Assembly: GCA_016936535.1 (NCBI GenBank)
Contig: JAFGXP010000003.1
Coordinates: 124,001-188,000 of the forward strand
Direction: 5' to 3'
Origin: Thiotrichales bacterium
Lineage (GTDB): Bacteria; Pseudomonadota; Gammaproteobacteria; Thiomicrospirales; Thiomicrospiraceae
DNA: 64,000 bases
The notes beneath the pieces were generated by a model. It was not told the DNA's origin and did not search any database. It saw only the letters and a list, made by a program, of their open reading frames with translations. Below, in pieces: positions 34,205 to 55,829 of this stretch. The translations under genes and the position numbers were made by a program. How positions within the stretch are numbered: the stretch's first letter is position 1; the number at the start of each line of letters is the position of its first letter.

Positions 34205-34231
34205 GGAGCCAACCTCGAAAACGGTGACTTT

Positions 34232-34690
34232 ATGAAAGATCCAAAACTGCGTAACGCACTTCTCTTACAACTGGTAGAACAAGCACAAGATGGCATAGTG
34301 GTGGCGGAAAAAGAAGGGGAAGACACCATCTTAATTTATGTCAATCCCGCATTTGAAAAACTCACGGGCTATCATTCCGATGAAATCCTGTATCAAGATT
34401 GTCGTTTTTTACAAGGCGAAGACACACAACAAGACTCGGTTCGACAAATTCGCAGTGCCATCGAAGCAACTGAACCGGTTCGTACCATTCTGAAAAATTA
34501 TCGTAAAGACGGTTCCATTTTCTGGAATGAACTCAGTGTTACACCTTTTTACGATGAGCATGACCAGATTACTTACTATATTGGCATTCAAAAAGATGTG
34601 ACCGAACAGGTTGAGTTACGTCAAGCGCTCCAACAAGCGCAAGCCGAGATTGCAGAGCTTAAGGCCGCGATAAAAGACACTACGAATTAG
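34232..34690 (+). CDS. short LOV blue-light photoreceptor (PpSB1-LOV-like)
   Basis: The 152-residue protein is one LOV domain with short helical ends and no output domain. The photoactive Cys57 lies in YQDCRFLQGED, with Asn89 (KNYRKDG), Asn99 (FWNEL) and the Gln120 of YYIGIQKDVT forming the flavin pocket. The segment DGIVVAEKEGEDTILIYVN is nearly the same as in P. putida PpSB1-LOV as I recall it. Arginines 58 and 74 are kept, but the two extra phosphate-binding arginines that slow PpSB1 recovery are Thr65 and Val70 here. The C-terminal helix (VELRQALQQAQAEIAELKA) should dimerise. It converges on a MerR regulator gene 54 bases away, its likely partner. Confidence 0.92.
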   Translation: MKDPKLRNALLLQLVEQAQDGIVVAEKEGEDTILIYVNPAFEKLTGYHSDEILYQDCRFLQGEDTQQDSVRQIRSAIEATEPVRTILKNYRKDGSIFWNELSVTPFYDEHDQITYYIGIQKDVTEQVELRQALQQAQAEIAELKAAIKDTTN

Positions 34691-34744: not shown

Positions 34745-35602
34745 TCAGTGAAAGAGCGCCCACTGAGGTGGCACAGCTTCGCCAAACAGCTGACCGAATG
34801 TCTTGCTTTGCCACTGAATTGGTTGACTGGTTACGGATGGGTTCGGTTGGATCGAGATTAGCACGTTTTCCAAGGCAGAATACGCCTCAAGCCGATCATT
34901 CTCTAAACCAAATTCAGACAGGTCTTGCTGAACCAGCAAGAGCATACCCGTGCAATTTAACCGCTTCATTTGACTGGCAGCTGGTAAAGATTCGGCTCCA
35001 GCCAGCAGGGGCTGGACGCCAAGCTGCATCAACCACAGTGCACAGAGCACCTCGGCAATCGGTGAAGGCACCAAGGGGCTGCGTAACAGATAAACCGCGG
35101 AAGGTGCTTGAGATTTCAATGCATACATCCGTTGTTGCATAAAACGCAAACGTGAATAGAGCCTTGGAAGCAGCAAAGATTGCCACAAAACCCTCTGTTC
35201 CGCAGGCATCTCAACCAACTCTTGCTGCGCTAAAAGCGAGAAAACCGAATACTCATCCAGTTCAACAAAAAGCCTATCCAATACTGCCTGCAACTCAAGT
35301 GCGCTTAAGGTCTGCAAGGCCTGATCTAACCGTTGATGCAAATCATCCAATTCATGATTGACGCGCGTTGGCAAGGGCGATGTTTGAAGCACGGATTTGA
35401 CTTGGCTAATCGCCACGCCCTGCCGAGTTAATTCGACCGCGCGTTTAATGACTTCGATATGCTCATCGGTGTACAAACGATGTCCGCTTTCAGTACGAAC
35501 AGGTTCGACCAGACCATAACGACGTTCCCATGCGCGCAAGGTAATCGCATTAATGCCGGTTAGGCGCGAGACTTCTCGAATCGGATATAGAGTTTGCTGC
35601 AT
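34745..35602 (-). CDS. CarH/LitR-type MerR regulator without visible B12 motif
   Basis: The 285-residue protein starts with a MerR DNA-binding domain (YPIREVSRLTGINAITLRAWERRYG, then VRTESGHRLYTDEHI) almost identical in pattern to CarH and LitR. The C-terminal 200 residues match the CarH layout in length, but I see neither the DxHxxG motif nor the ExxH segment that hold cobalamin. Such 'class II LitR' proteins in Pseudomonas, and BluR in E. coli, work with a separate flavin photoreceptor. The converging LOV gene supplies one here. ATG 35602 is preferred to the frame's upstream codon at 35668. It probably represses the TnTACA-bearing promoters. Confidence 0.85.
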   Translation of the reverse strand: MQQTLYPIREVSRLTGINAITLRAWERRYGLVEPVRTESGHRLYTDEHIEVIKRAVELTRQGVAISQVKSVLQTSPLPTRVNHELDDLHQRLDQALQTLSALELQAVLDRLFVELDEYSVFSLLAQQELVEMPAEQRVLWQSLLLPRLYSRLRFMQQRMYALKSQAPSAVYLLRSPLVPSPIAEVLCALWLMQLGVQPLLAGAESLPAASQMKRLNCTGMLLLVQQDLSEFGLENDRLEAYSALENVLISIQPNPSVTSQPIQWQSKTFGQLFGEAVPPQWALFH

Positions 35603-35769: not shown

Positions 35770-37218
35770 CTAAGCGTGTTTTAACTCCTGAACGCGCGCC
35801 ATGTGACTGTGACGACTGCGCATCAAATCCACCATTGGGAACGGATAGGTTCGCCCTAGGGTAATGCCTTTTAACGCACACTCTTGTGGGTAGAGCCAAG
35901 GCGCATGAATCGCCTTACAGGAAAGATTGCGTAACTCCGGCACCCATTTACGAATGTAGGTTCCTTGAGGATCAAACTTTTCACTTTGACGTAAAGGATT
36001 GAAAAGGCGGTAATAGGGTGCGGCATCCACACCGCAACCGGCTACCCATTGCCAACCCATGGTGTTATTTGCCGGGTCAGCATCAACTAGAGTTTTGGCA
36101 AACCACTCCTGTCCCAGCAACCAACTCTGTCCTAAATCCTTGGTTAAGAGTGACGCCACCAACATCCGCAGCCGGTTGTGCATAAAACCGGTTTCCCACA
36201 GCTCACGCATACCCGCATCAATAATAGGAATCCCCGTTTGCCCGGTTTGCCACTGGTGTAAGACGGAATCTTCGTTCTGCCAACTCAAGCCTGCAAACTT
36301 TTCTTGGAACGGTGCAGTTTCGGTATAAGGAAAAAACCAAAGTAAATGCCGTGCAAACTCGCGCCAGAGTAATTGGCGTAACCAGGTTTGCGCATTAAGC
36401 TTAGGGTGTGTTTGCTGCAGAGACAACAACTCAAAGTGCAACATTCGGCTTGAAATCTCACCAAAATGCAAATGCGGTGCCAAGCGACTGGTCGCATCCA
36501 AGGCTGGGAAATCCCGTTCATCCGCGTAGCCGTTGAGTTGATGATCGGCAAAGCTGCGCAGACGCTCCCACGCAGCGGTTTCGCCAACTTGCCAATATTG
36601 CATAATTTTTTTAACCCACGGCTTATCTTGCAGCTCACTTAAGCTTGGCGGCAATTGAAAATAGTGCGCAGGTAAACGTTCACGCCAGCGCAACTTTGCC
36701 CAATCGTCGTCACAAGATACCACCGATTCCTGTAAGGGTTCTAAGGTATCAATTTTGCCAATTGCCGCTTTATAAAAAGGCGTAAACACAACATAAGGAC
36801 GATGTTGCTGGTTTAACAGCTGACCAGGATCAAACCAAAATTCGGAGTAGAACGGTTGCAGCGCAACCTTATGCTCTTGGCAAAGGTTAAGCGCCAAATC
36901 TTGCATTTCCGTAAAAGGTTGCCCTACTTGAAAACTGTAATAGACCTGTTGTGGTTTAATCTCGCTCAACGCGAGCGAAAACTGCTCAGGAAAATCGCCA
37001 GAAAAAATAAACAAATCCGCACCGCGTGCATAGAGTTGGCGACGCAAGTTCGCCAAACTATGTGACAACCAAGCGGTGTTCGCCTCACCAATCACTCTTT
37101 TGGGATCATGGAAATAAACCACTGCCACTTGGCTCGATTCGGCAATCGCTTTCTGCAATGCAGGCAGATGCGAAAGGCGCAGCTCCCTTTGTAACCAAAC
37201 CAACGTCGTTTTCGACAT
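35770..37218 (-). CDS. phrB: class I deoxyribodipyrimidine photolyase
   Basis: The photolyase uses blue light to split cyclobutane pyrimidine dimers. The 482-residue protein has the N-terminal antenna domain (TTLVWLQRELRLSHLPAL) and FAD domain motifs SRLAPHLHFGEISSRM, WLRQLLWREFARHLLWFFP, IPIIDAGMRELWETGFMHNRLRMLVASLLTKDL and DADPANNTMGWQWVAGCG. AGGAG precedes ATG 37218 by seven bases; the GTG two codons earlier is too close to it. It lies between the DUF operon and the regulator gene on the same strand. Confidence 0.96.
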   Translation of the reverse strand: MSKTTLVWLQRELRLSHLPALQKAIAESSQVAVVYFHDPKRVIGEANTAWLSHSLANLRRQLYARGADLFIFSGDFPEQFSLALSEIKPQQVYYSFQVGQPFTEMQDLALNLCQEHKVALQPFYSEFWFDPGQLLNQQHRPYVVFTPFYKAAIGKIDTLEPLQESVVSCDDDWAKLRWRERLPAHYFQLPPSLSELQDKPWVKKIMQYWQVGETAAWERLRSFADHQLNGYADERDFPALDATSRLAPHLHFGEISSRMLHFELLSLQQTHPKLNAQTWLRQLLWREFARHLLWFFPYTETAPFQEKFAGLSWQNEDSVLHQWQTGQTGIPIIDAGMRELWETGFMHNRLRMLVASLLTKDLGQSWLLGQEWFAKTLVDADPANNTMGWQWVAGCGVDAAPYYRLFNPLRQSEKFDPQGTYIRKWVPELRNLSCKAIHAPWLYPQECALKGITLGRTYPFPMVDLMRSRHSHMARVQELKHA

Positions 37219-37367: not shown

Positions 37368-37913
37368 TTAGCGTGCATTTGAAACCGGTTTATCGACTTC
37401 AGTCAGCAGCTGATCGCGAACCTTTTCTGATAAGGCATTCGGCCCCAACCAAACTCCAAAATACAGTTGCTTGAACCCTGCTGTCGCAGTTTGAAACAAG
37501 GGCTGTTGATTCAAACTTAATTGCACACCTTGCTGCGGTTCATACCGCAACTGATAGCAATCGTTTGGCTCAACATTTTGATAAGCCTGATGCAAACCCT
37601 GAACCGCCGCTTTCAATTCGGGACTCAAATCCTCCGGAAGTGCTTTAGATGCGGCCTCAACAAATTGTTCTTTACTGATAGCACGCAAATAACACAACTC
37701 AAGATTCAGCGGTGTTGTCTCTTGCAAGAGTTGCTGAGACCCTACCTTTTCGGGTGCATAGAGAGCCGCCTTGTAAACATCAATAAACAGCCAGGTCGCG
37801 GTGGCTTCAGCGCGCAACGTTAACTCCGAGCTGGACGCGAGAGCGGGAAGACTAACGAGTCCAAGAAGCAACGCCCTAGGAATGGCAGACCAAAAAGATG
37901 GCTTATTTTTCAT
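37368..37913 (-). CDS. chalcone isomerase-like exported protein
   Basis: The 181-residue protein has a signal peptide ending near ALASSS, then ELTLRAEATATWLFIDVYKAALYAP, ELCYLRAISKEQFVEAASKALP and a C-terminal FKQLYFGVWLGPNALSEKVRDQLL. This is the bacterial chalcone-isomerase-like fold found in photo-oxidative stress clusters next to DUF3833 and CFA synthase genes; it is not expected to act on flavonoids. AAGGAAA precedes ATG 37913. It is the last gene of the amine oxidase operon. Confidence 0.8.
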   Translation of the reverse strand: MKNKPSFWSAIPRALLLGLVSLPALASSSELTLRAEATATWLFIDVYKAALYAPEKVGSQQLLQETTPLNLELCYLRAISKEQFVEAASKALPEDLSPELKAAVQGLHQAYQNVEPNDCYQLRYEPQQGVQLSLNQQPLFQTATAGFKQLYFGVWLGPNALSEKVRDQLLTEVDKPVSNAR

Positions 37914-37941
37914 GTTCGTTTCCTTAAACATCTCGTTGATC

Positions 37942-38523
37942 TTATTCCAGCGGTGTTTTGCTGAAAAACAAAGTAACCTCACCCACGGTAAAACCAAACT
38001 TACTCACCGTTGCCCGATTAAACATGGTGTTGGCATTTTGCAACCACATCCAATCGTTAAATTTGACAGCAATGGTTCCGTCTTGGTAAGGCAAATCCAG
38101 AACATACTGCCACTGCAAGGCATTGCCGGCGCTAAGACCTTTTGCCTCGCCAATCACATCTGCCGCCCGCCCGCTATATTGACCTTTGCCAAGGTCATCA
38201 ATCGTCCAAACCCGCCGTTGTTTTTCACCATCGTCATAAACAAAATGCTCATCCAACTCCAATTGTTGACCTCGGACAGTGCCGGTAATTTTGACGGAAA
38301 AACGCCGTATGACCTGCCCGCTACGATTTTGAAACTGACCTTGGGCATAAGTGGTTCCGGCAAAATACTCAAAAATATCCAGTTTAGGCTCTTGTTGAGC
38401 ATAGTCTTCAACCTGAACCGTGCTGCAACCGCTGAGTGTAGCCAAACTAGCAAACAAAACCGCGAACAATCGAATGGATCGGCAGCGAGCGGCCGCTTTC
38501 GTAAAAAAACAGGTGGCACGCAT
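37942..38523 (-). CDS. DUF3833 family lipoprotein
   Basis: The 193-residue protein has a long signal and lipobox LATLSGCST, then the DUF3833 pattern DIFEYFAGTTYAQGQFQNRSGQVIRRFSVKITG, LDEHFVYDDGEKQRRVW, YSGRAADVIGEAKGLSAGNALQWQYVL and FNDWMWLQNANTMFNRATVSKFGFTVGEVTLFF. The function is unknown; the pattern is lipocalin-like and suggests binding of a lipid or other hydrophobic ligand. It sits directly downstream of the cyclopropane synthase gene. Confidence 0.88.
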   Translation of the reverse strand: MRATCFFTKAAARCRSIRLFAVLFASLATLSGCSTVQVEDYAQQEPKLDIFEYFAGTTYAQGQFQNRSGQVIRRFSVKITGTVRGQQLELDEHFVYDDGEKQRRVWTIDDLGKGQYSGRAADVIGEAKGLSAGNALQWQYVLDLPYQDGTIAVKFNDWMWLQNANTMFNRATVSKFGFTVGEVTLFFSKTPLE

Positions 38524-38532
38524 TGTTTTCTC

Positions 38533-39768
38533 CTATTGATGAACCAACGTCAGTTGTTTTACAGAAATCTGGCCACTCTCAAAACCGACTGTGCAGTAGT
38601 CGAGGTAATAGTTCCAAATCCGCTGGAAATGGGTGTCGTAGCCCATTTCATTCAAGCGATCGCTTTGTTGATTAAAACGCTGTTTCCAAAGTTGACAGGT
38701 CTTGGCATAATCTGGGCCAAAATCCAACTGATTTTGAATCACGAAGCCATGTGCTTGCGCGAGGCTTTCTAATTGAGCACAGCTTGGTAACAAACCGCCC
38801 GGGAAAATATAAGCCTGAATAAAATCCACGCTGGATTGGTACGTTTCAGCTTTGGCTTCATCAATAGTGATAATCTGCAACACCACTTTTCCCTGAGCCT
38901 TGAGCGATTGCTTTAGGGTTTCAAAATAGCTTTGCCAATACTCTTTACCAACCGCTTCAAACATTTCAATCGAAACAATGTGATCATACTGTGCTTGTTC
39001 CAGACGGTAATCTTGAAACGCAACTTCATAGCGCTCAGGAGCAAATCCCTGTAAACGCTGCAACGCATAACTGCGCTGTTCGGTGGACAAGGTTAACCCT
39101 TTAATCTGTAGATTCTCTTTCTGCTCTAAAGTTTGTTGCATAAAACCGCCCCAACCACAGCCGATTTCCAGCAAACGTTCACCACCTTTTAAATCCAACT
39201 GTTGCAAAATGCGCTGATTTTTAGCCGCTTGCGCTTCCGATAAACGGGCGTTATCCGATTCGAAAAGTGCACTGGAATAAGTCATGCTCGAATCCAGCCA
39301 AAGTGCGTAAAAATCGTTGCCCAAGTCGTAGTGATAAGAGATATTACGTTGGCTGTTCGTAAGAGAGTTGTGTCGCTTACGGTGCTGCCAAAGGTGACGC
39401 AAAGCACCAATCTTGTTGGCAAGCATTGGAGCAAGCACCGCCTCATTTAGATGGGCTAAGGTCAACAAATGGTAGAGGGAGGTGGTATCCAGCGCCCCCT
39501 CATGATAGGCCTGAACAAATCCAAGCTCACCTTGGGTTTTAATCAACCACAAAGCGCGCAAGGGCTGATTCAAAATCAGTTCGGCGTGTGGACCTGGGTG
39601 CGGGCCATCAAAACGCACGTTCTCGTCGTGATAACTCAGGGTGAGGCTGCCAAATTGAATCTGCGAAAAAGGCAACTTCGCCAAAGCATATTTGACCCAA
39701 GAAGGGGCAACGCAACGTTCGAGCATCGCTCCCCAAAATGATCGACTGTTTGAACCATTTCTTAACAT
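38533..39768 (-). CDS. cfa: cyclopropane-fatty-acyl-phospholipid synthase
   Basis: The enzyme adds a methylene bridge from SAM to unsaturated lipid chains, stiffening the membrane against oxidative damage. The 411-residue protein shows ISYHYDLGNDFYALWLDSSMTYSSALF, LLEIGCGWGGFMQQ, LTLSTEQRSYALQRLQ, VSIEMFEAVGKEYW, FIQAYIFPGGLLPSC and a late RIWNYYLDYCTVGF. It overlaps the end of DUF1365 by seven bases. Confidence 0.95.
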   Translation of the reverse strand: MLRNGSNSRSFWGAMLERCVAPSWVKYALAKLPFSQIQFGSLTLSYHDENVRFDGPHPGPHAELILNQPLRALWLIKTQGELGFVQAYHEGALDTTSLYHLLTLAHLNEAVLAPMLANKIGALRHLWQHRKRHNSLTNSQRNISYHYDLGNDFYALWLDSSMTYSSALFESDNARLSEAQAAKNQRILQQLDLKGGERLLEIGCGWGGFMQQTLEQKENLQIKGLTLSTEQRSYALQRLQGFAPERYEVAFQDYRLEQAQYDHIVSIEMFEAVGKEYWQSYFETLKQSLKAQGKVVLQIITIDEAKAETYQSSVDFIQAYIFPGGLLPSCAQLESLAQAHGFVIQNQLDFGPDYAKTCQLWKQRFNQQSDRLNEMGYDTHFQRIWNYYLDYCTVGFESGQISVKQLTLVHQ

Positions 39769-40583
39769 ATGTGCATCTCCGAATGTGAGTAGCGGACATC
39801 GGCCAGTTCTTTAGGCGTGCGATGAAATTTCCCGCCCTTCAACCAAATTTTGAGTGCCCACCAATGAATCATCAGCAACACCTTTAGGCTATTAAAAGGC
39901 AAAGCCAAGGCAGCTTGATAGAGTTGTTTAACCGCAAGAGGATAGGCTTTTGCCACTTGAGTTGCGACCAACATCGGGCGCCCCTGTTGCGATTGATAAA
40001 TGCCAATTTGCAAGCGCTCTTGCGGCGTTTTTAGACGAAATTGATATTGGCAATCCATGTCGATAAACGGCGAAACATGAAAAACCTTGCGCGCTTGCGC
40101 TTGCAACTTGTCCGACTCAGCACACAAGGGAGCTCCACCCTGAACCAAAACATAATGATGCCATTGGCCAAAGGTATTACTGACTTCCCCCACCACGGCA
40201 ATCAGTTGATTGCTGGCATCGTAGGCATACCACATGGCTAAGGGATTAAACACCACACCCATAAAACGTGGCGAACAAACCAATTCAATGCGTGCAGGTG
40301 ATTCCGTAACACCGTATTGTGCTAACAACTGCTCAAGCCAAGGACGCCACGCCTTTCCATCTCGCGCCCCAAAATCCTTCCAATAAACACTGAAAAGGTT
40401 AGCTCGGTTAAAAGACAAGGGCGCAAATCGGCCCAGTTGCTTAAGCTCTTGAGCGAACTGATCGACATTGATTCGCAAGCTCATTACGCCGTAGTTAAAA
40501 CGGTATTGCATCGGAAAAAAACGCTGGTGCATCACCGAGCCCAGATAGATGGCCGAAGGAGTAGGTTCAAACGTTGACATCAT
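39762..40583 (-). CDS. DUF1365 family protein
   Basis: The 273-residue protein begins SAIYLGSVMHQRFFPMQYRFNYGVMSLRINVDQF, with PVxYRF-type motif, and continues NRANLFSVYWKDFGARDG, CSPRFMGVVFNPLAMWYAYD, VGEVSNTFGQWHHYVL and FHVSPFIDMDCQYQFRLKTP. DUF1365 almost always sits between an amine oxidase-like gene and CFA synthase, as here. Its own activity is unknown; lipid modification is the usual suggestion. It overlaps the upstream gene by 17 bases. Confidence 0.92.
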   Translation of the reverse strand: MMSTFEPTPSAIYLGSVMHQRFFPMQYRFNYGVMSLRINVDQFAQELKQLGRFAPLSFNRANLFSVYWKDFGARDGKAWRPWLEQLLAQYGVTESPARIELVCSPRFMGVVFNPLAMWYAYDASNQLIAVVGEVSNTFGQWHHYVLVQGGAPLCAESDKLQAQARKVFHVSPFIDMDCQYQFRLKTPQERLQIGIYQSQQGRPMLVATQVAKAYPLAVKQLYQAALALPFNSLKVLLMIHWWALKIWLKGGKFHRTPKELADVRYSHSEMHIC

Positions 40584-41892
40584 TTTTTTTCCCCTCCCAC
40601 GGTAACGAAATTTGCCAACGACGGGCTAGGTCAACCGCACTACGCAAACCATCTTCATGAAATCCATAACCGGTATAAGCGCCGGCAAACCAACAATGCG
40701 CTTTGCCTTGCACCAAATTCAACGCTTTTTGCGCGGCCATCGCTGCCTCATCAAACACCGGATGCTGGTACACAATTTTTTCAAACGTCAGGGCCGGCTT
40801 GGGCGGCTCAAAAGGGTTTAATGTCACCAAAATTGGCGTTTTTTGGGGCAAATTCTGCAGTCGATTCATCCAGTAAGTCACCGCCACATTTTTCTCTTCG
40901 GTGTGCGAATCTCGTAAATAGTTCCAACTGGCCCAAGCAAGCTTCCGTTTCGGCATCAACGCCAAATCCGTATGCACGTAAGCGATATTTTCTTGGTACT
41001 TGAAATCCTGCATAAACGGAAACTCTTGACGTAACGCGGGATCGAGCAACTGCCAAGTTTGATCCCCATGACTAGCAAAAACCACTTCATCAAACTCTTG
41101 GGTCGTGCAGTCCGTTTCAACCATCAAACCTTGGCTGGTTGGGCTAACCTTTTGCACACCTTCAAAAACCACTAAAAAACGCGCCTGCTGCAAGATAGCA
41201 TCAATGTACTTCTGCGCACCGCCACTGACGGTTTCCCACTGCGGCCGGTCTTCCACATTGAGCAGTCCGTGATTTTCAAAAAAACGCAAAAAGCTGGCAA
41301 CGGGGAATGCCATCATGGTGGATACTGGGCAAGACCAGATAGCTGCAGCCATCGGCAATAAATAAACGTTTCGCATCCGCATGCTGAAACCATGTTGGTC
41401 AAGATACTCACCCAAACTTTGCGAGAGCTCTGCGGACGAAAATAAGTCTTTTTTAGCTTGACGATTAAATCGCAAAATCTCTTTAATCATCTTCCAGTGG
41501 GCAACAGAAAGCAGGTTGCGCCGCTGAGCAAACAAGGTGTTGAGATTATTGCCTGAATACTCTAAGGCACCCTGATCAACCGACACAGAAAAACTCATTT
41601 CGGTATTTTCTGTGTCAATGTTAAGGTGTTTAAACATTGCGCTAAGGTGCGGATAGTTCGGGCGATTAAACACAATAAAGCCGCTATCTACCGCTTGTTT
41701 TTGCCCTTCTACCTGTAACATACGGGTATTGGTATGCCCACCGAGCTTGGTGTTTTTTTCAAACAACGTGACTTGGTGGTGCTGTGCCAAAAACCAAGCG
41801 CTGGCTAATCCACTAATACCACTGCCAATTACTGCCACTCTTTTCACTGTGGATTGTTCACTGATTTTGTTTTGTGTTTCCATCGAGGTCAT
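40567..41892 (-). CDS. FAD-dependent amine oxidase/desaturase-like protein
   Basis: The 441-residue flavoprotein has RVAVIGSGISGLASAWFLAQHHQVTLFEKNTKLGGHTN at its start, FIVFNRPNYPHLSAMFKHL, IWSCPVSTMMAFPVASFLRFFENHGLL, VFASHGDQTWQLL and a late CWFAGAYTGYGFHEDGLRSAVDLA. This is the amine oxidase-like group linked to CFA and DUF1365 genes, whose substrate is probably a lipid. I use ATG 41892; a TTG at 41925 lies inside the promoter and is unlikely. It heads the five-gene light/stress operon. Confidence 0.85.
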   Translation of the reverse strand: MTSMETQNKISEQSTVKRVAVIGSGISGLASAWFLAQHHQVTLFEKNTKLGGHTNTRMLQVEGQKQAVDSGFIVFNRPNYPHLSAMFKHLNIDTENTEMSFSVSVDQGALEYSGNNLNTLFAQRRNLLSVAHWKMIKEILRFNRQAKKDLFSSAELSQSLGEYLDQHGFSMRMRNVYLLPMAAAIWSCPVSTMMAFPVASFLRFFENHGLLNVEDRPQWETVSGGAQKYIDAILQQARFLVVFEGVQKVSPTSQGLMVETDCTTQEFDEVVFASHGDQTWQLLDPALRQEFPFMQDFKYQENIAYVHTDLALMPKRKLAWASWNYLRDSHTEEKNVAVTYWMNRLQNLPQKTPILVTLNPFEPPKPALTFEKIVYQHPVFDEAAMAAQKALNLVQGKAHCWFAGAYTGYGFHEDGLRSAVDLARRWQISLPWEGKKNDVNV

Positions 41893-41916: not shown

Positions 41917-41959
41917 GTTATACAAAAACCTTTACAAAAAATCAAATTTATTATACAAA
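41917..41959. promoter_or_regulatory. TnTACA repeats over the divergent amine oxidase/SDR promoters
   Basis: TTATACA at 41918-41924, TTTACA at 41931-41936 and TATACA at 41952-41957 are in the same orientation, with steps of 12 and 21 bp. On the minus strand they cover a promoter TTGATT (41945-41940), 17 bases, TATAAC (41922-41917). On the plus strand TTTACA (41931-41936), 17 bases, TACAAA (41954-41959) could serve the SDR operon. The element TnTACA is the half-site described for CarH operators. A repressor bound here would shut both directions. Confidence 0.6.
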
Positions 41960-42121: not shown

Positions 42122-42901
42122 ATGGCATCAAATGATTCCCCTCTAACCATTTGGTTAGTCGGCGCTTCTCAAGGAATTGGACTGGCGCTAACCGAGCGGC
42201 TTCTAGATCAAGGCCACTGTGTGATTGCAACGGCCCGAAACGCCTGCCAATCAGCTGAGCTTTTGGCTTTACAGGCACAACACAATCTAGAAATTCCACG
42301 CTTACACCTACTGGACGGCGATGTGCAGGCCGACACGGTCCAGGCCTTGTGTCAACAGGCTTGGGTGCTGGGAAACGGCATTGATATTTGGTTTTATAAT
42401 GCAGGACTCTATTCGGCAATGCGCACGACAGAGTGGGAGCTTTCGGCGTTTACCGCGATGAATCAGGTCAATTATCTAGGAGCCGTTAAATTAATGATTG
42501 AGCTGGAAAGCCTGCAACGCCAAACTGCCAAGCCCATGCGCTGGATTTGGAACATCAGTCTGTCTGCCGATTTTGGATTGCCTTATGGCGGCGGCTACTC
42601 GGCTCCTAAAGCGGCTCTGCTAAATTTAGCCGAGTCGTTGCAACCCGAGCTGGCGCAACAGAAAATTCAATTACAAGTCATCAATCACGGCTTTGTTAAA
42701 ACACGGCTAACCGCAAAAAATACCTTTAATATGCCAGGGTTAATGCCACCTGAAGAGGCGGCCGAACGAATTAGTCAATGGATGTTCGCGCCAAGCCGCC
42801 GTTTTGAATTGCGCTTTCCATTTGCGTTAGCCACCACCTTAGCCATCCTTAAACGACTCCCAAAATCCCTTAGTTTATGGCTAACCAAAAGGATGCTGTG
42901 A
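42122..42901 (+). CDS. short-chain dehydrogenase/reductase
   Basis: The 259-residue protein has a Rossmann start IWLVGASQGIGLALTERLLDQG, YNAGLYS and the catalytic YSAPKAALLNLAESLQPEL with a Ser in NISLSADFG. The C terminus has PEEAAERISQWMFAPSRRFELRFP, typical of the SDR in photo-oxidative stress clusters; the substrate is unknown. AAGGAG precedes ATG 42122. It heads the divergent set opposite the amine oxidase operon. Confidence 0.9.
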   Translation: MASNDSPLTIWLVGASQGIGLALTERLLDQGHCVIATARNACQSAELLALQAQHNLEIPRLHLLDGDVQADTVQALCQQAWVLGNGIDIWFYNAGLYSAMRTTEWELSAFTAMNQVNYLGAVKLMIELESLQRQTAKPMRWIWNISLSADFGLPYGGGYSAPKAALLNLAESLQPELAQQKIQLQVINHGFVKTRLTAKNTFNMPGLMPPEEAAERISQWMFAPSRRFELRFPFALATTLAILKRLPKSLSLWLTKRML

Positions 42902-42904
42902 ATC

Positions 42905-43375
42905 ATGAACACCCCTTCACCTCTGCTAACAAGCTTGCAAGCATACTGCCAAGTTTTTGCGACCTTGACGCCGCAGTCAGTATCCAGCGACCTTGCTCCT
43001 TTACTTGCCGAAACGGTGTATTTTGAAGATCCATTCAATCAACTCTATGGAAAGGCCGAAACCCTTCGCTTGTTTTCACATATGTTTGCCACCGTGCAAC
43101 AACCGCAATTTAGCGTGCTTGATTTTGCATTGAGTGCTGAAACGCAAGGCTACATCTATTGGAAATTTACTTATCGAAGAAATCATCAACTGCACCACTT
43201 CAAAGGGGTAAGCAAAATCACTTTTGACGAAGACGGTTTGGTGCAATCACATATTGATTTTTGGGATCCGGCTAAAGCCATTTACCAATCTCTCCCCGTG
43301 ATTGGCGGCTTGTTGCGTTGGTTGGAACGAAAAATTGCGCTCCCCAAAAATTGGCACCCAAAAGTGAACCACTGA
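42905..43375 (+). CDS. NTF2/SnoaL-like domain protein
   Basis: The 156-residue protein has the cone-shaped NTF2-like pattern: LAPLLAETVYFEDPFNQLYGKAETLRLFSHMF, FTYRRNHQLHHFKGVSKITFDEDGLVQSHIDFWDPAKAIYQSLPVIG. Members occur beside the SDR in light/stress clusters; the function is unknown and could be a ligand-binding or isomerase role. It lies between the SDR (3 bases upstream) and the MFS gene (1 base downstream). Confidence 0.85.
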   Translation: MNTPSPLLTSLQAYCQVFATLTPQSVSSDLAPLLAETVYFEDPFNQLYGKAETLRLFSHMFATVQQPQFSVLDFALSAETQGYIYWKFTYRRNHQLHHFKGVSKITFDEDGLVQSHIDFWDPAKAIYQSLPVIGGLLRWLERKIALPKNWHPKVNH

Positions 43376-43376
43376 G

Positions 43377-44675
43377 ATGGCGCGCACCTTCAATCGGCTC
43401 GGCCATCGAAATGCATTTTTCTACGGTTGGATGGGTTTTCCAACGGCATTACTGGGTATTCCGCTTTACTTGTACCTGCCCAATTTTTATCACCAAACTC
43501 TGGGAATCAGCTTAACCGTTATTGGTTCTGCACTTTTGGCCGCCCGTTTATTGGATGTTGTGACGGACCCGCTCATTGGTTGGTACAGCGACCGCTTCCA
43601 AAATCGAATGCCGCGTCCTTGGCAAATTGCGATGGGTGCGATCTTATTGTTAGTCGGTACTTATCAATTGTTCTTCCCCAACCAGAATTTTGATTTTTAC
43701 TCGCTGATATTCTGGAGCTTTCTGACCTATCTTGGCTGGACGTTGGTGCAGGTTCCTCATCAAGCCATGCAAGCAGAAATCAGCACCCAGTCAACCTTAA
43801 AAACACTCCTTGCTGGCTACCGCGAAGCCTTTGCCATCGCGGGCGTCTTAGCGATTGTTCTTCTACCTGCACTCTTGGGCTATTTGCCAACCGAAAACGC
43901 TTTTTACACTTTGAGCTTCAGTTTATTAGCGATTTCGCTCCCCTTAGCCGTTCTCTTTTTGTGGGCCATTCAACCTGAAGACAATATGCCCAAAGCAGCC
44001 GAGCCAAAAACCGCAGAGTCGGCTTGGCGCGCGTTGATTAGGCTATGGCAGCAAGAACGCCAAGTTTTTGCAATTATGCCCAGTTATTTCATTAACAACT
44101 TTGCCAATGCCCTGCCTGCGACCATTTTTATCCTGTTTGTCGGCAACTATCTGCAGCTTGAAGCACAGATTGGCTTGTTTTTAGTGGCGTATTTCCTCTC
44201 AGGCATTCTCGCTTTGCCGGGCTGGATTTGGCTGGCTCGGCACTTTGGGAAACACCAAACATGGCAAGCCTCGATGCTTCTGGCCTGCGTGACTTTTAGC
44301 GGCGTCTTTTGGCTGGATCCAGGAAACTGGCAAGGCTTTTTACTGATTTGCATTCTGACGGGCCTCAGCTTAGGGGTAGATGTGGCTATGCCAACCTCGA
44401 TTCAAGCCGACCTCAGTCAACAGCTGCGTCATTCATCCAATCGCCATGCCGGACTCTTGTTTGGCTTATGGGGAATGCTCACCAAATTCGCACTCGCTCT
44501 GGCAGTTGGCCTAAGCTTTCCACTGCTGGATTGGGTGCAAAATGCTCAGTGGTCAACACAATACTTGCTGCTTTTTTTATATGCAGGCCTTCCAATTGCA
44601 CTTAAACTCTTGGCTTGGTATCTGCTTAGACGCCATCGGCTTAATTTTGTGCCCTACTCACCTTCATCCCTCTAG
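43377..44675 (+). CDS. MFS transporter of the GPH/melibiose-like type
   Basis: The 432-residue protein has 12 predicted membrane helices. The loop SALLAARLLDVVTDPLIGWYSDRFQNRMPRPW after the first helices and the TLVQVPHQAMQAEIS segment are typical of the sugar-cation (GPH) branch of MFS_2. The cargo is unknown; in stress clusters these are often next to NTF2-like and SDR genes. ATG 43377 lies one base after the preceding stop. Confidence 0.88.
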   Translation: MARTFNRLGHRNAFFYGWMGFPTALLGIPLYLYLPNFYHQTLGISLTVIGSALLAARLLDVVTDPLIGWYSDRFQNRMPRPWQIAMGAILLLVGTYQLFFPNQNFDFYSLIFWSFLTYLGWTLVQVPHQAMQAEISTQSTLKTLLAGYREAFAIAGVLAIVLLPALLGYLPTENAFYTLSFSLLAISLPLAVLFLWAIQPEDNMPKAAEPKTAESAWRALIRLWQQERQVFAIMPSYFINNFANALPATIFILFVGNYLQLEAQIGLFLVAYFLSGILALPGWIWLARHFGKHQTWQASMLLACVTFSGVFWLDPGNWQGFLLICILTGLSLGVDVAMPTSIQADLSQQLRHSSNRHAGLLFGLWGMLTKFALALAVGLSFPLLDWVQNAQWSTQYLLLFLYAGLPIALKLLAWYLLRRHRLNFVPYSPSSL

Positions 44676-51234: not shown

Positions 51235-52263
51235 ATGCTTGTATCTCTATTGGGTCTAGAAACCCCACCAGCATCAGAATTCAACTCTGACGACGGCGTT
51301 GCTGCGATCGTTGGAACCCTTAAAAAACTGCCACTTATTGGTGATACCGTTGGTCCACTGATCAATACCTTGCACGGCCTTCCCCTTGTTGGTGAAGACA
51401 TTAAATTTGTTACCTCTACACTTCACTCGGTTTTACCAGGTGGAACTCTAATCAATGACGTGGTCGAAACGGTTACCAGCCTGCCAGTGGTAGGTGATGT
51501 ACTAAGCCTTGTTGAAACCCTTGATAACAACCTATTAGGGGGTATCACTGGACCAGGCGGTCTAGTTCCAAGCCTCTTAGCACCGGATGGATTAGTTGGC
51601 GGTCTATTAGGTACCGTTGGTGGTCTCGTCAACAATCTTCCTATCGTTGGCGACCTATTGGGCGGCGGTGAAGGTGGCGATGGTCTATTGGGCGGCTTGC
51701 TCGGTGGCGAAGGCGGTTTACTCGGTGGCTTACTCGGCGGTGAGGGTGGTTTGCTTGGCGGCTTGTTAGGCGGTGGAGAAGGCGGGCTTTTGGGCGGCCT
51801 ACCGATCGTTGGCAACTTGTTGGGCAGTGATGGTTTAGTTGGCGGACTACTCAGCGAAGATGGCGTAGTTGGCGGTGTTTTAAGCACCCTGATTGGTGAA
51901 AATGGTGTTGTTACTGGATTGGTCGGTACCGTTACCGGTCTGCTGGATAATCTACCAATTGTTGGCGACCTATTGGGTGGCGACGGCCTATTAGGCGGGC
52001 TACTTGGTGGTGGCGGTCTATTAGGCGGCTTATTGGGTGGCGGCGAAGGTGGTCTTCTAAACCTTGGCGATCTTTTAGGTGGTGATGACGGCGGTTTATT
52101 AGGTGGTTTGCTAGGCGGTGGTTCTGCAGATACGTCTGTTGACGTTTCCGCATCGGCTTCTGCTTCTACCGGTTCAAGCGGCTTGTTAGGTGGCTTGTTG
52201 GGTGGCGACGGCCTACTTGGCGGCTTGTTAGGCGGCGATGGCCTATTAGGTGGCCTTTTGTAA
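51235..52263 (+). CDS. Gly/Leu-rich repeat protein of unknown function
   Basis: The 342-residue protein has two repeat types. The first 220 residues hold six copies of LP(L/I/V)(I/V)G(D/E/N), for example LPLIGD and LPIVGD, about 20-60 residues apart. From about residue 140 onward blocks of GLLGG joined by G, D or E repeat many times. A Ser/Ala linker (VDVSASASAS) precedes the end, which is again LLGGLL. There is no signal peptide, no Cys and few Lys. It could be a secreted or surface matrix protein, a pore-like assembly, or a scaffold. AGGAG before ATG 51235 and a strong terminator behind it show it is a genuine single gene. Confidence 0.75.
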   Translation: MLVSLLGLETPPASEFNSDDGVAAIVGTLKKLPLIGDTVGPLINTLHGLPLVGEDIKFVTSTLHSVLPGGTLINDVVETVTSLPVVGDVLSLVETLDNNLLGGITGPGGLVPSLLAPDGLVGGLLGTVGGLVNNLPIVGDLLGGGEGGDGLLGGLLGGEGGLLGGLLGGEGGLLGGLLGGGEGGLLGGLPIVGNLLGSDGLVGGLLSEDGVVGGVLSTLIGENGVVTGLVGTVTGLLDNLPIVGDLLGGDGLLGGLLGGGGLLGGLLGGGEGGLLNLGDLLGGDDGGLLGGLLGGGSADTSVDVSASASASTGSSGLLGGLLGGDGLLGGLLGGDGLLGGLL

Positions 52264-54653: not shown

Positions 54654-54681
54654 TTGTTGTTTTATACAAAAGCTATACAAT
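54654..54681 (+). promoter_or_regulatory. hemH promoter with two TnTACA repeats exactly 11 bp apart
   Basis: TATACA at 54663-54668 and 54674-54679 are exact direct repeats one helical turn apart. A promoter TTGTTG (54654-54659), 16 bases, TACAAT (54676-54681) contains both, with the second repeat forming part of the -10. This matches the CarH half-site nnTnTACAn and its 11-bp spacing, and would let a MerR/LitR-type repressor block the promoter. Confidence 0.65.
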
Positions 54682-54710: not shown

Positions 54711-55829
54711 ATGCATTATTACGGAAGAGCACAATTTGCGCACGGCGAGTCAAGTGCCGTTGGAGTCTTGCTGACCAATCTTGGAACGCCTGATGCACCG
54801 ACCAAACAAGCACTTCGCCCCTATCTCAAAGAGTTTTTAGAAGATCCTCGAGTTGTGGAGCCGCCGCCAGCGCGATGGTTATGGAAACTGATTTTGAATG
54901 GCATTATTTTAAACATTCGCCCCGCCAAATCTGCTGAAGCCTATGCCAGTGTTTGGGACTCTGAAGGTCCAGGTGCACCCTTACTCAAGATTACAGAACG
55001 GCAATTAGAGGGCGTAAAAAAAGCACTCAGTCCCCATTTTAAAGGCCGAGTTGAGTTTGCGTTAGCAATGCGTTATGGCAACCCGTCTATTGCCAGCGCC
55101 CTACGGGAACTGCATGAAAAAGGCTGCCAACGCATCGTCGTTTTACCGCTTTACCCTCAATATGCGGCAGCGACTACCGCTTCTACCTTTGATGCCGTGA
55201 GTGCCGAATTGCAAACTTGGCGTTGGATTCCGGAGCTGCGCTTTATCAACCACTATCATCGCCATCCGGGATACATCAAAGCTTTAGCGAACAGCATTCG
55301 CGAACATCAAGCTGTTCATGGCAAGCCACAGCTGCTGGTTATGTCTTATCACGGTGTTCCCCAGCGCTATTTAGACAATGGTGATCCGTACCATTGCGAA
55401 TGCCATGTCACCTCACGATTAGTGGCACAAGAACTCGGTCTGGGCAAAGAAGATTATAAGGTCACCTTTCAATCCTTATTTGGCCGCGAGGAATGGATTA
55501 AGCCTTATACAGATGAGACGATGAAGGCTTTACCCAGCCAAGGAATTAAAGACATTCAAGTGATTTGCCCAGGATTTTCAGCGGACTGCTTGGAAACAAT
55601 CGAAGAAATTGACGAAGAAAACCGCGAGTATTTTGAGCATGCGGGTGGAGAAAAATTCAGCTATATCAAATGCTTAAACGACCGTGAAGATCACACACAA
55701 ATGTTGGCACAACTGATTCTAGAACACACGCAAGGCTGGTATGAACGTGATCAATTTCACGCTGACGCCGACCAAATTGAGCGAGAAACCGTACAACAAA
55801 ATGCCAAAGCCATGGGTTGCCCTTTCTAA
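54711..55829 (+). CDS. hemH: ferrochelatase
   Basis: HemH inserts iron into protoporphyrin IX to make haem. The 372-residue protein has VLLTNLGTPDAPTKQALRPYLKEFLEDPRVVE, LYPQYAAATTASTFDAV, the SYHGVPQRYLDNGDPYHCEC segment with the metal-site His, YKVTFQSLFGREEWIKPYTDETM and CPGFSADCLETIEEID. AGAGGAG precedes ATG 54711; the upstream codon at 54654 lies in the promoter. The TnTACA repeats in its promoter suggest control by light, which would fit the phototoxicity of free protoporphyrin. A terminator shared with gltA follows. Confidence 0.96.
   Translation: MHYYGRAQFAHGESSAVGVLLTNLGTPDAPTKQALRPYLKEFLEDPRVVEPPPARWLWKLILNGIILNIRPAKSAEAYASVWDSEGPGAPLLKITERQLEGVKKALSPHFKGRVEFALAMRYGNPSIASALRELHEKGCQRIVVLPLYPQYAAATTASTFDAVSAELQTWRWIPELRFINHYHRHPGYIKALANSIREHQAVHGKPQLLVMSYHGVPQRYLDNGDPYHCECHVTSRLVAQELGLGKEDYKVTFQSLFGREEWIKPYTDETMKALPSQGIKDIQVICPGFSADCLETIEEIDEENREYFEHAGGEKFSYIKCLNDREDHTQMLAQLILEHTQGWYERDQFHADADQIERETVQQNAKAMGCPF

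Follow-up and report, generated by a model that had tools for sequence, protein, structure and literature searches.

A predicted direct-repeat operator for a CarH-like MerR regulator and its LOV partner in a Thiomicrorhabdus genome

Known light-responsive systems and the organisation of the locus

The closest described systems are those in which a MerR-type repressor is coupled to a short LOV photoreceptor. Repression by PmlR2, binding of PmSB-LOV in blue light and relief of the repression have been shown in vitro for Pseudomonas mendocina; the site T(G/A)TACA-N12-TGTA(C/T)A is proven for PmlR2 and represents a consensus for PplR1, and the related pmlR1 cluster contains photolyase, SDR, FAD oxidoreductase and UfaM genes (PMC9758184). 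The CarH operators of T. thermophilus, B. megaterium and myxobacteria are built of direct repeats in 11-bp steps, which have the core TnnACA and lie over a -35 or -10 element, and the myxobacterial ones show a DR1-dr2-DR3-DR4 layout, some of them being thought to serve divergent promoters (PMC9304148). In Rhodobacter sphaeroides, the furan-fatty-acid operon RSP1087-1091 is linked to ChrR, the loss of which raises furan fatty acids (PMC7380195).

The locus described here is located in a window of 64 kb, the term denoting the whole stretch of DNA analysed (G000:C2:124001-188000), from a 2.12-Mb assembly referred to below as the host genome; LOV homologues from named records assign it to Thiomicrorhabdus. 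The first gene of a minus-strand operon codes for an FAD-dependent oxidoreductase of the amine oxidase type in a UfaD-like position (40567-41883; PF13450, PF01593), followed by genes for a DUF1365 protein in a UfaO-like position (39762-40583; PF07103), a CFA/UfaM-type SAM-dependent fatty-acyl methyltransferase (38533-39768; PF02353), a DUF3833 protein (37942-38523; PF12915) and a chalcone-isomerase-like protein (37368-37925; PF16036), the start of which is uncertain, with the longest ORF reaching 37997. The DNA photolyase gene phr (35770-37218) probably belongs to the same operon, and further downstream the minus strand carries the gene of a MerR/CarH-like regulator of the class II LitR type without B12 motif (34745-35602), the proposed repressor. 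A short LOV photoreceptor with the motif DCRFLQG, the proposed blue-light anti-repressor, is encoded convergently on the plus strand (34229-34690). No operator repeats were seen in the window in the gaps upstream of phr, merR and lov; on this ground, one long operon is taken to include phr and merR, and lov to be expressed separately. The preliminary description spoke of a five-gene lipid operon, which probably continues through phr and merR, in which case merR would be autoregulated. In the opposite direction, the plus-strand set comprises genes for an SDR family oxidoreductase (42122-42901; PF00106), a SnoaL/NTF2-like protein (42905-43375; PF12680) and an MFS_2 transporter (43377-44675; PF13347).

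The locus shares with the PmlR2/PmSB-LOV system and with PplR1 of P. putida a B12-less CarH-type MerR protein adjoining a short LOV protein and TRTACA/TGTAYA words over a sigma-70 promoter, and with the related pmlR1 cluster the photolyase, SDR, FAD oxidoreductase and UfaM-type genes. It differs in presenting direct repeats at multiples of 11 bp and no N12 site, whereas the repeats of PmlR2/PplR1 (TGTACA-N12-TGTACA) follow an 18-bp step, in uniting LOV, MerR and the lipid/photolyase cluster in one locus, and in having candidate sites at hemH, ovoA and a second photolyase gene. The direct repeats of the genus, in 11-bp steps with the TnnACA core and over a promoter, recall the CarH operators, and the 22 + 11 spacing of several relatives matches the DR1-dr2-DR3-DR4 layout. 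However, CarH is its own light sensor by means of adenosylcobalamin and acts on carotenoid genes, whereas the MerR protein considered here lacks the B12 motif and would act on genes concerned with lipids, repair, haem and thiols. Finally, RSP1087-1091 are resembled in the UfaD/UfaO-type positions combined with a fatty-acyl methyltransferase, as judged from gene type and order rather than from direct comparison; a MerR/LOV pair takes the place of ChrR, and the lipid product is a predicted one. The locus is of a known type of light-response system, for the LOV-coupled branch of which neither this operator geometry nor this regulon is described in the papers found.

The gene order LOV, MerR, phr, (CHI, DUF3833), CFA/UfaM, DUF1365, FAD oxidoreductase, operator, SDR, NTF2 is kept in named Thiomicrorhabdus. 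MerR is present in 16 of 17 operon-bearing genomes versus two of eight without the operon (Fisher p about 0.001), and LOV in 16 of 17 versus one of eight (p about 0.0001), both tests ignoring shared ancestry. The one operon-bearing genome in which neither gene was detected (G002) is 83% complete, while G017 carries MerR without LOV and without the operon. For Hydrogenovibrio sp. SC-1 and one Piscirickettsiaceae MAG, the stretch examined showed no lipid cluster; there, an 11-bp pair lies directly upstream of merR instead (L143 11323 and L144 11289).

Predicted operator repeats and the promoters they overlap

Three TnTACA words occur in the same orientation on the plus strand (TATACA at 41919-41924, TTTACA at 41931-41936 and TATACA at 41952-41957), agreeing to the base with the positions given in the preliminary description. 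Read on the minus strand, the predicted operator (41919-41957) consists of the direct repeats TGTATA (41957-41952), TGTAAA (41936-41931) and TGTATA (41924-41919). No second same-strand TnTACA triple fitting into 45 bp exists in the window, and dinucleotide shuffling of the intergenic region (228 bp) produces one at a frequency of 0.0001. The proposal that the 33 bp correspond to three 11-bp repeats is well supported for the total, in line with an 11-bp peak in the genus; the single steps measure 21 + 12 bp (12 + 21 on the plus strand) rather than exact multiples of 11 bp, and the middle word is TGTAAA.

Same-strand TGTAYA pairs at 11, 22 or 33 (+/-1) bp are present in all 18 upstream regions compared, from the window and 17 relatives of the genus, whereas shuffles of these regions gave a mean of 0.013 regions with a pair and a maximum of one in 300 rounds. 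The spacings upstream of the FAD oxidoreductase gene are mostly 22 + 11, 23 + 11 or 33 + 11 bp in the relatives; among the nearest ones, L003 shares the 21 + 12 of the window, and L002 and L004 show 21 + 11. In the nearest relatives, the segment from ATTTGTATAATAAATTTG to TGTAAAGGTTTT forms an island of identity between unalignable flanks.

Genome-wide statements are based on pattern searches with reversed-pattern controls. The motif search suggested in the preliminary description bore out an 11-bp grammar, with a peak at this spacing and 21 matches of TTGTAYANNNNTTGTATA in the genus versus none for the reversed control; TGTAYANNNNNTGTAYA has seven matches in the host genome versus none reversed. 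Across 18 genomes with both the MerR gene and LOV, 76 pair matches (palindromic ones being counted on both strands) compare with four reversed, and six genomes without MerR yielded three. Among the matches listed, at least 28 TGTAYA pairs are spaced by 11 bp versus a mean of 2.1 for each other spacing. This spectrum, drawn from about seven genomes, is restricted to pairs in which one word or both read TGTATA; palindromic TGTACA-TGTACA pairs were left out by hand. Direct 11-bp repeats over promoter elements, a trait of CarH-type operators, are thus found here with a genus-wide peak, and the 22 + 11 spacing recurs in several relatives. Oriented pairs at 18 bp do not occur among the genus matches listed, and the published PplR1/PmlR2 geometry (TNTACAN12TGTANA) has no match in the host genome. 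The seven 11-bp TGTAYA pairs of the host genome and its 14 pairs with gaps of 0-30 all come out on the reverse contig strand, maybe a matter of contig orientation. Sequence and comparison together lend good support to the earlier prediction of an operator for a CarH-type MerR protein, and 41917-41959 is very probably a real operator.

The predicted operator overlaps the likewise predicted sigma-70 promoter TTGATT-N17-TATAAC of the FAD oxidoreductase operon (41917-41945, minus strand), which is present as previously claimed; its -10 element (41922-41917) falls within an outer repeat and its -35 element (41945-41940) between repeats, and the position is kept in most relatives. The possible promoter towards the SDR gene, TTTACA-N17-TACAAA (41931-41959, plus strand), is likewise present, though with a weak -10 that matches in 4/6 positions; both of its hexamers (41931-41936 and 41954-41959) overlap repeats, and the leader would measure about 155 nt. 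A consensus promoter scanner flagged neither of the two, because it accepts only -10 hexamers with T as the sixth base, whereas by a simple match score each ranks first in its own direction in the window. In most of the genomes, the outermost repeat contains the predicted minus -10 (TATAAx), which is preceded at 16-18 bp by a -35 element. About two thirds also show an opposite promoter, its TACAAW coinciding with the other outer repeat and its -35-like word lying 16-18 bp before it. Part of this overlap is built into the motif, since TGTATAA contains a -10-like hexamer. Since both outward promoters lie under the predicted operator, a single binding event could shut them down together. In the window, such silencing is well founded for the minus operon and plausible for the SDR half, which is weaker than in most relatives, with a gap of about 165 bp and the -10 TACAAA; the earlier view of the two operons as one switch is less well supported for this genome.

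Proposed regulator, photoreceptor and alternative readings

The likely regulator of the operator is the MerR protein encoded at 34745-35602, one of only two MerR_1 genes detected in the host genome. It has a winged-helix DNA-binding domain of the CarH/MlrA type (PF13411, 1.4e-17), with 2jml (the CarA DNA-binding domain) and CarH as best PDB sequence matches and MlrA, followed by CarH, as best NCBIfam models, both under their full-length cut-offs. Its AlphaFold model (pLDDT 86.7) aligns from end to end with CarH 5c8e, its closest match (Z 16.2; 256 residues at an rmsd of 6.5). The adenosylcobalamin-binding domain and residues of the B12-dependent CarH photoreceptor are absent: no B12-binding Pfam domain was found in the protein, and the DxHxxG motif occurs in none of 17 MerR homologues. 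As modelled, the protein is a CarH relative with a CarH-like C-terminal fold and without a usable B12 motif. The LOV gene is its conserved neighbour, convergent in the clusters examined, and the best PDB matches of LOV are the short LOV proteins 7a6p and 3sw1, which are from Pseudomonas.

The most probable reading, which we favour with some confidence, is that the operator belongs to a blue-light-controlled repressor and that LOV acts as the anti-repressor which opens the lipid/photolyase operon. In the dark, the B12-less CarH/LitR-type MerR protein would bind to the direct TGTAYA repeats, whose distances of roughly one, two and three turns of the helix would put them on the same face of the DNA, and would cover the minus -10 element and, where it is used, both hexamers of the plus-strand promoter. 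Blue light would convert LOV to its adduct form, which, by analogy with PmlR2/PmSB-LOV, may bind MerR and take it off the DNA. This release would open the UfaD/UfaO/CFA-type lipid genes, the photolyase gene, merR itself and probably the SDR set, and the same repressor probably controls hemH, the second photolyase/cryptochrome gene and ovoA. The preliminary description names neither the blue-light input through LOV nor these further candidate members. That the protein binds and represses, that LOV relieves the repression and that both directions switch together are inferred parts of the scheme.

The repeats might alternatively be mere fragments of AT-rich promoters (TATAAC, TACAAT), repeat-like by chance or through shared promoter sequence, as the region is AT-rich and the -10-like hexamer is contained in TGTATAA. 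This appears extremely improbable, since the arrangement almost never arises in dinucleotide shuffles, by which chance AT-rich repeats were rejected, and since the 11-bp peak exceeds its neighbours among the matches listed, the reversed controls stay near zero and matches are few where MerR is missing (three in six genomes versus 76 in 18). A more serious alternative, tentative and yet the weightiest of those considered, confines the operator to the minus operon and places the SDR set outside the switch, under a promoter of its own nearer 42122. It would account for the distance that separates the operator from the SDR start codon, about 165 bp in the window and, as in its closest relatives, longer than in most of the genus, for the -10 TACAAA of the window and its closest relatives, weaker than the TACAAT spelled by the outer repeat in most relatives, and for the extra TGTAYA words nearer the SDR gene in two close relatives, L003 and L134. 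Against it, TTTACA-N17-TACAAA is retained in the window, L002, L003 and L004, the same operator stands just upstream of the SDR gene in most of the genus (about 33 bp from the start codon in L005), and the plus-strand promoters in the operator-SDR gap are no better than chance gives. The words in L134 (16500-16525) are three TGTACA in 10-bp steps near the SDR gene and possibly form a second operator.

Doubt may also concern the signal: MerR could respond to something other than LOV, independently of B12 like CarA, or to redox state or singlet oxygen, with LOV serving another purpose. G017, with its MerR lacking LOV and operon, would fit such a case, and the rise of furan fatty acids upon loss of ChrR in R. 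sphaeroides (PMC7380195) offers another route for the gene set. We regard it as unlikely, because lov is convergent with merR in the clusters examined, LOV is far better conserved than MerR (72-84% versus 29-52% identity), and direct LOV-MerR anti-repression has been shown in P. mendocina (PMC9758184).

Candidate regulon

A second candidate operator of the window, TATACA-N5-TATACA (54663-54679, plus strand), keeps the exact 11-bp step just upstream of the ferrochelatase gene hemH (54711-55829, plus strand; TIGR00109 above cut-off), a predicted regulon member that also has the site in G012, G019, G023 and G024. The cleanest CarH-like operator of the host genome, three exact 11-bp repeats (L124 1501-1528; G000:C34:118684-118711), precedes the second photolyase/cryptochrome gene. 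A pair is further found upstream of the ovothiol synthase gene ovoA (L131 1501-1517; G000:C44:13128-13144; TIGR04344 above cut-off), a gene type likewise carrying the site in G009, G010, G015 and G018 (L110, L117, L037 and L049), and another upstream of DUF3429 and flavin-reductase-like genes (L129 1501-1517; G000:C40:93191). The sites C25:46573, C40:77208 and C46:16366 were not accepted as regulon members, as no second genome supported them.

The pairs before hemH, the second photolyase/cryptochrome gene and ovoA suggest a photoprotection regulon, and the candidate targets would fit light protection through repair, removal of protoporphyrin IX, an antioxidant thiol and a change of membrane lipids. 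For the widest reading, the chances appear about even: a LOV-controlled, B12-less CarH relative with an 11-bp operator, in place of the 18-bp type of Pseudomonas, would govern, in chemolithotrophic sulfur oxidisers, a photoprotection regulon that extends from furan-type membrane lipids and two photolyases to ferrochelatase and the making of ovothiol, and a single operator would silence both of the overlapping outward promoters. No direct precedent was found in the literature for a connection of LitR with ovothiol, of light with hemH or of Thiomicrorhabdus with LOV, nor any paper that connects a light regulator of the LitR type with ovoA. For bacteria, the reading predicts that light controls the synthesis of ovothiol as well as ferrochelatase, the enzyme by which the photosensitiser protoporphyrin IX is removed, and the short-LOV effector system first shown in Pseudomonas would extend to autotrophic sulfur bacteria with another operator geometry. 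This would make it testable how the CarH family came to exchange its B12 light sensor for a LOV partner, with the DNA grammar kept or changed on the way.

Some minor observations may be added. The ovoA pair in L131 is located directly downstream of a gene for a sigma-70-family factor, and a flavin reductase gene similar to that of the DUF3429 site also has a pair nearby in G018 (L051). Several relatives have 11-bp pairs in the vicinity of genes for PAS-domain or chemoreceptor-like proteins (L031, L035 and L040), a possible connection between light and taxis. Apart from these sites, the window contains an ORF with Gly/Leu-rich repeats (GGLLGG) at 51235-52263.
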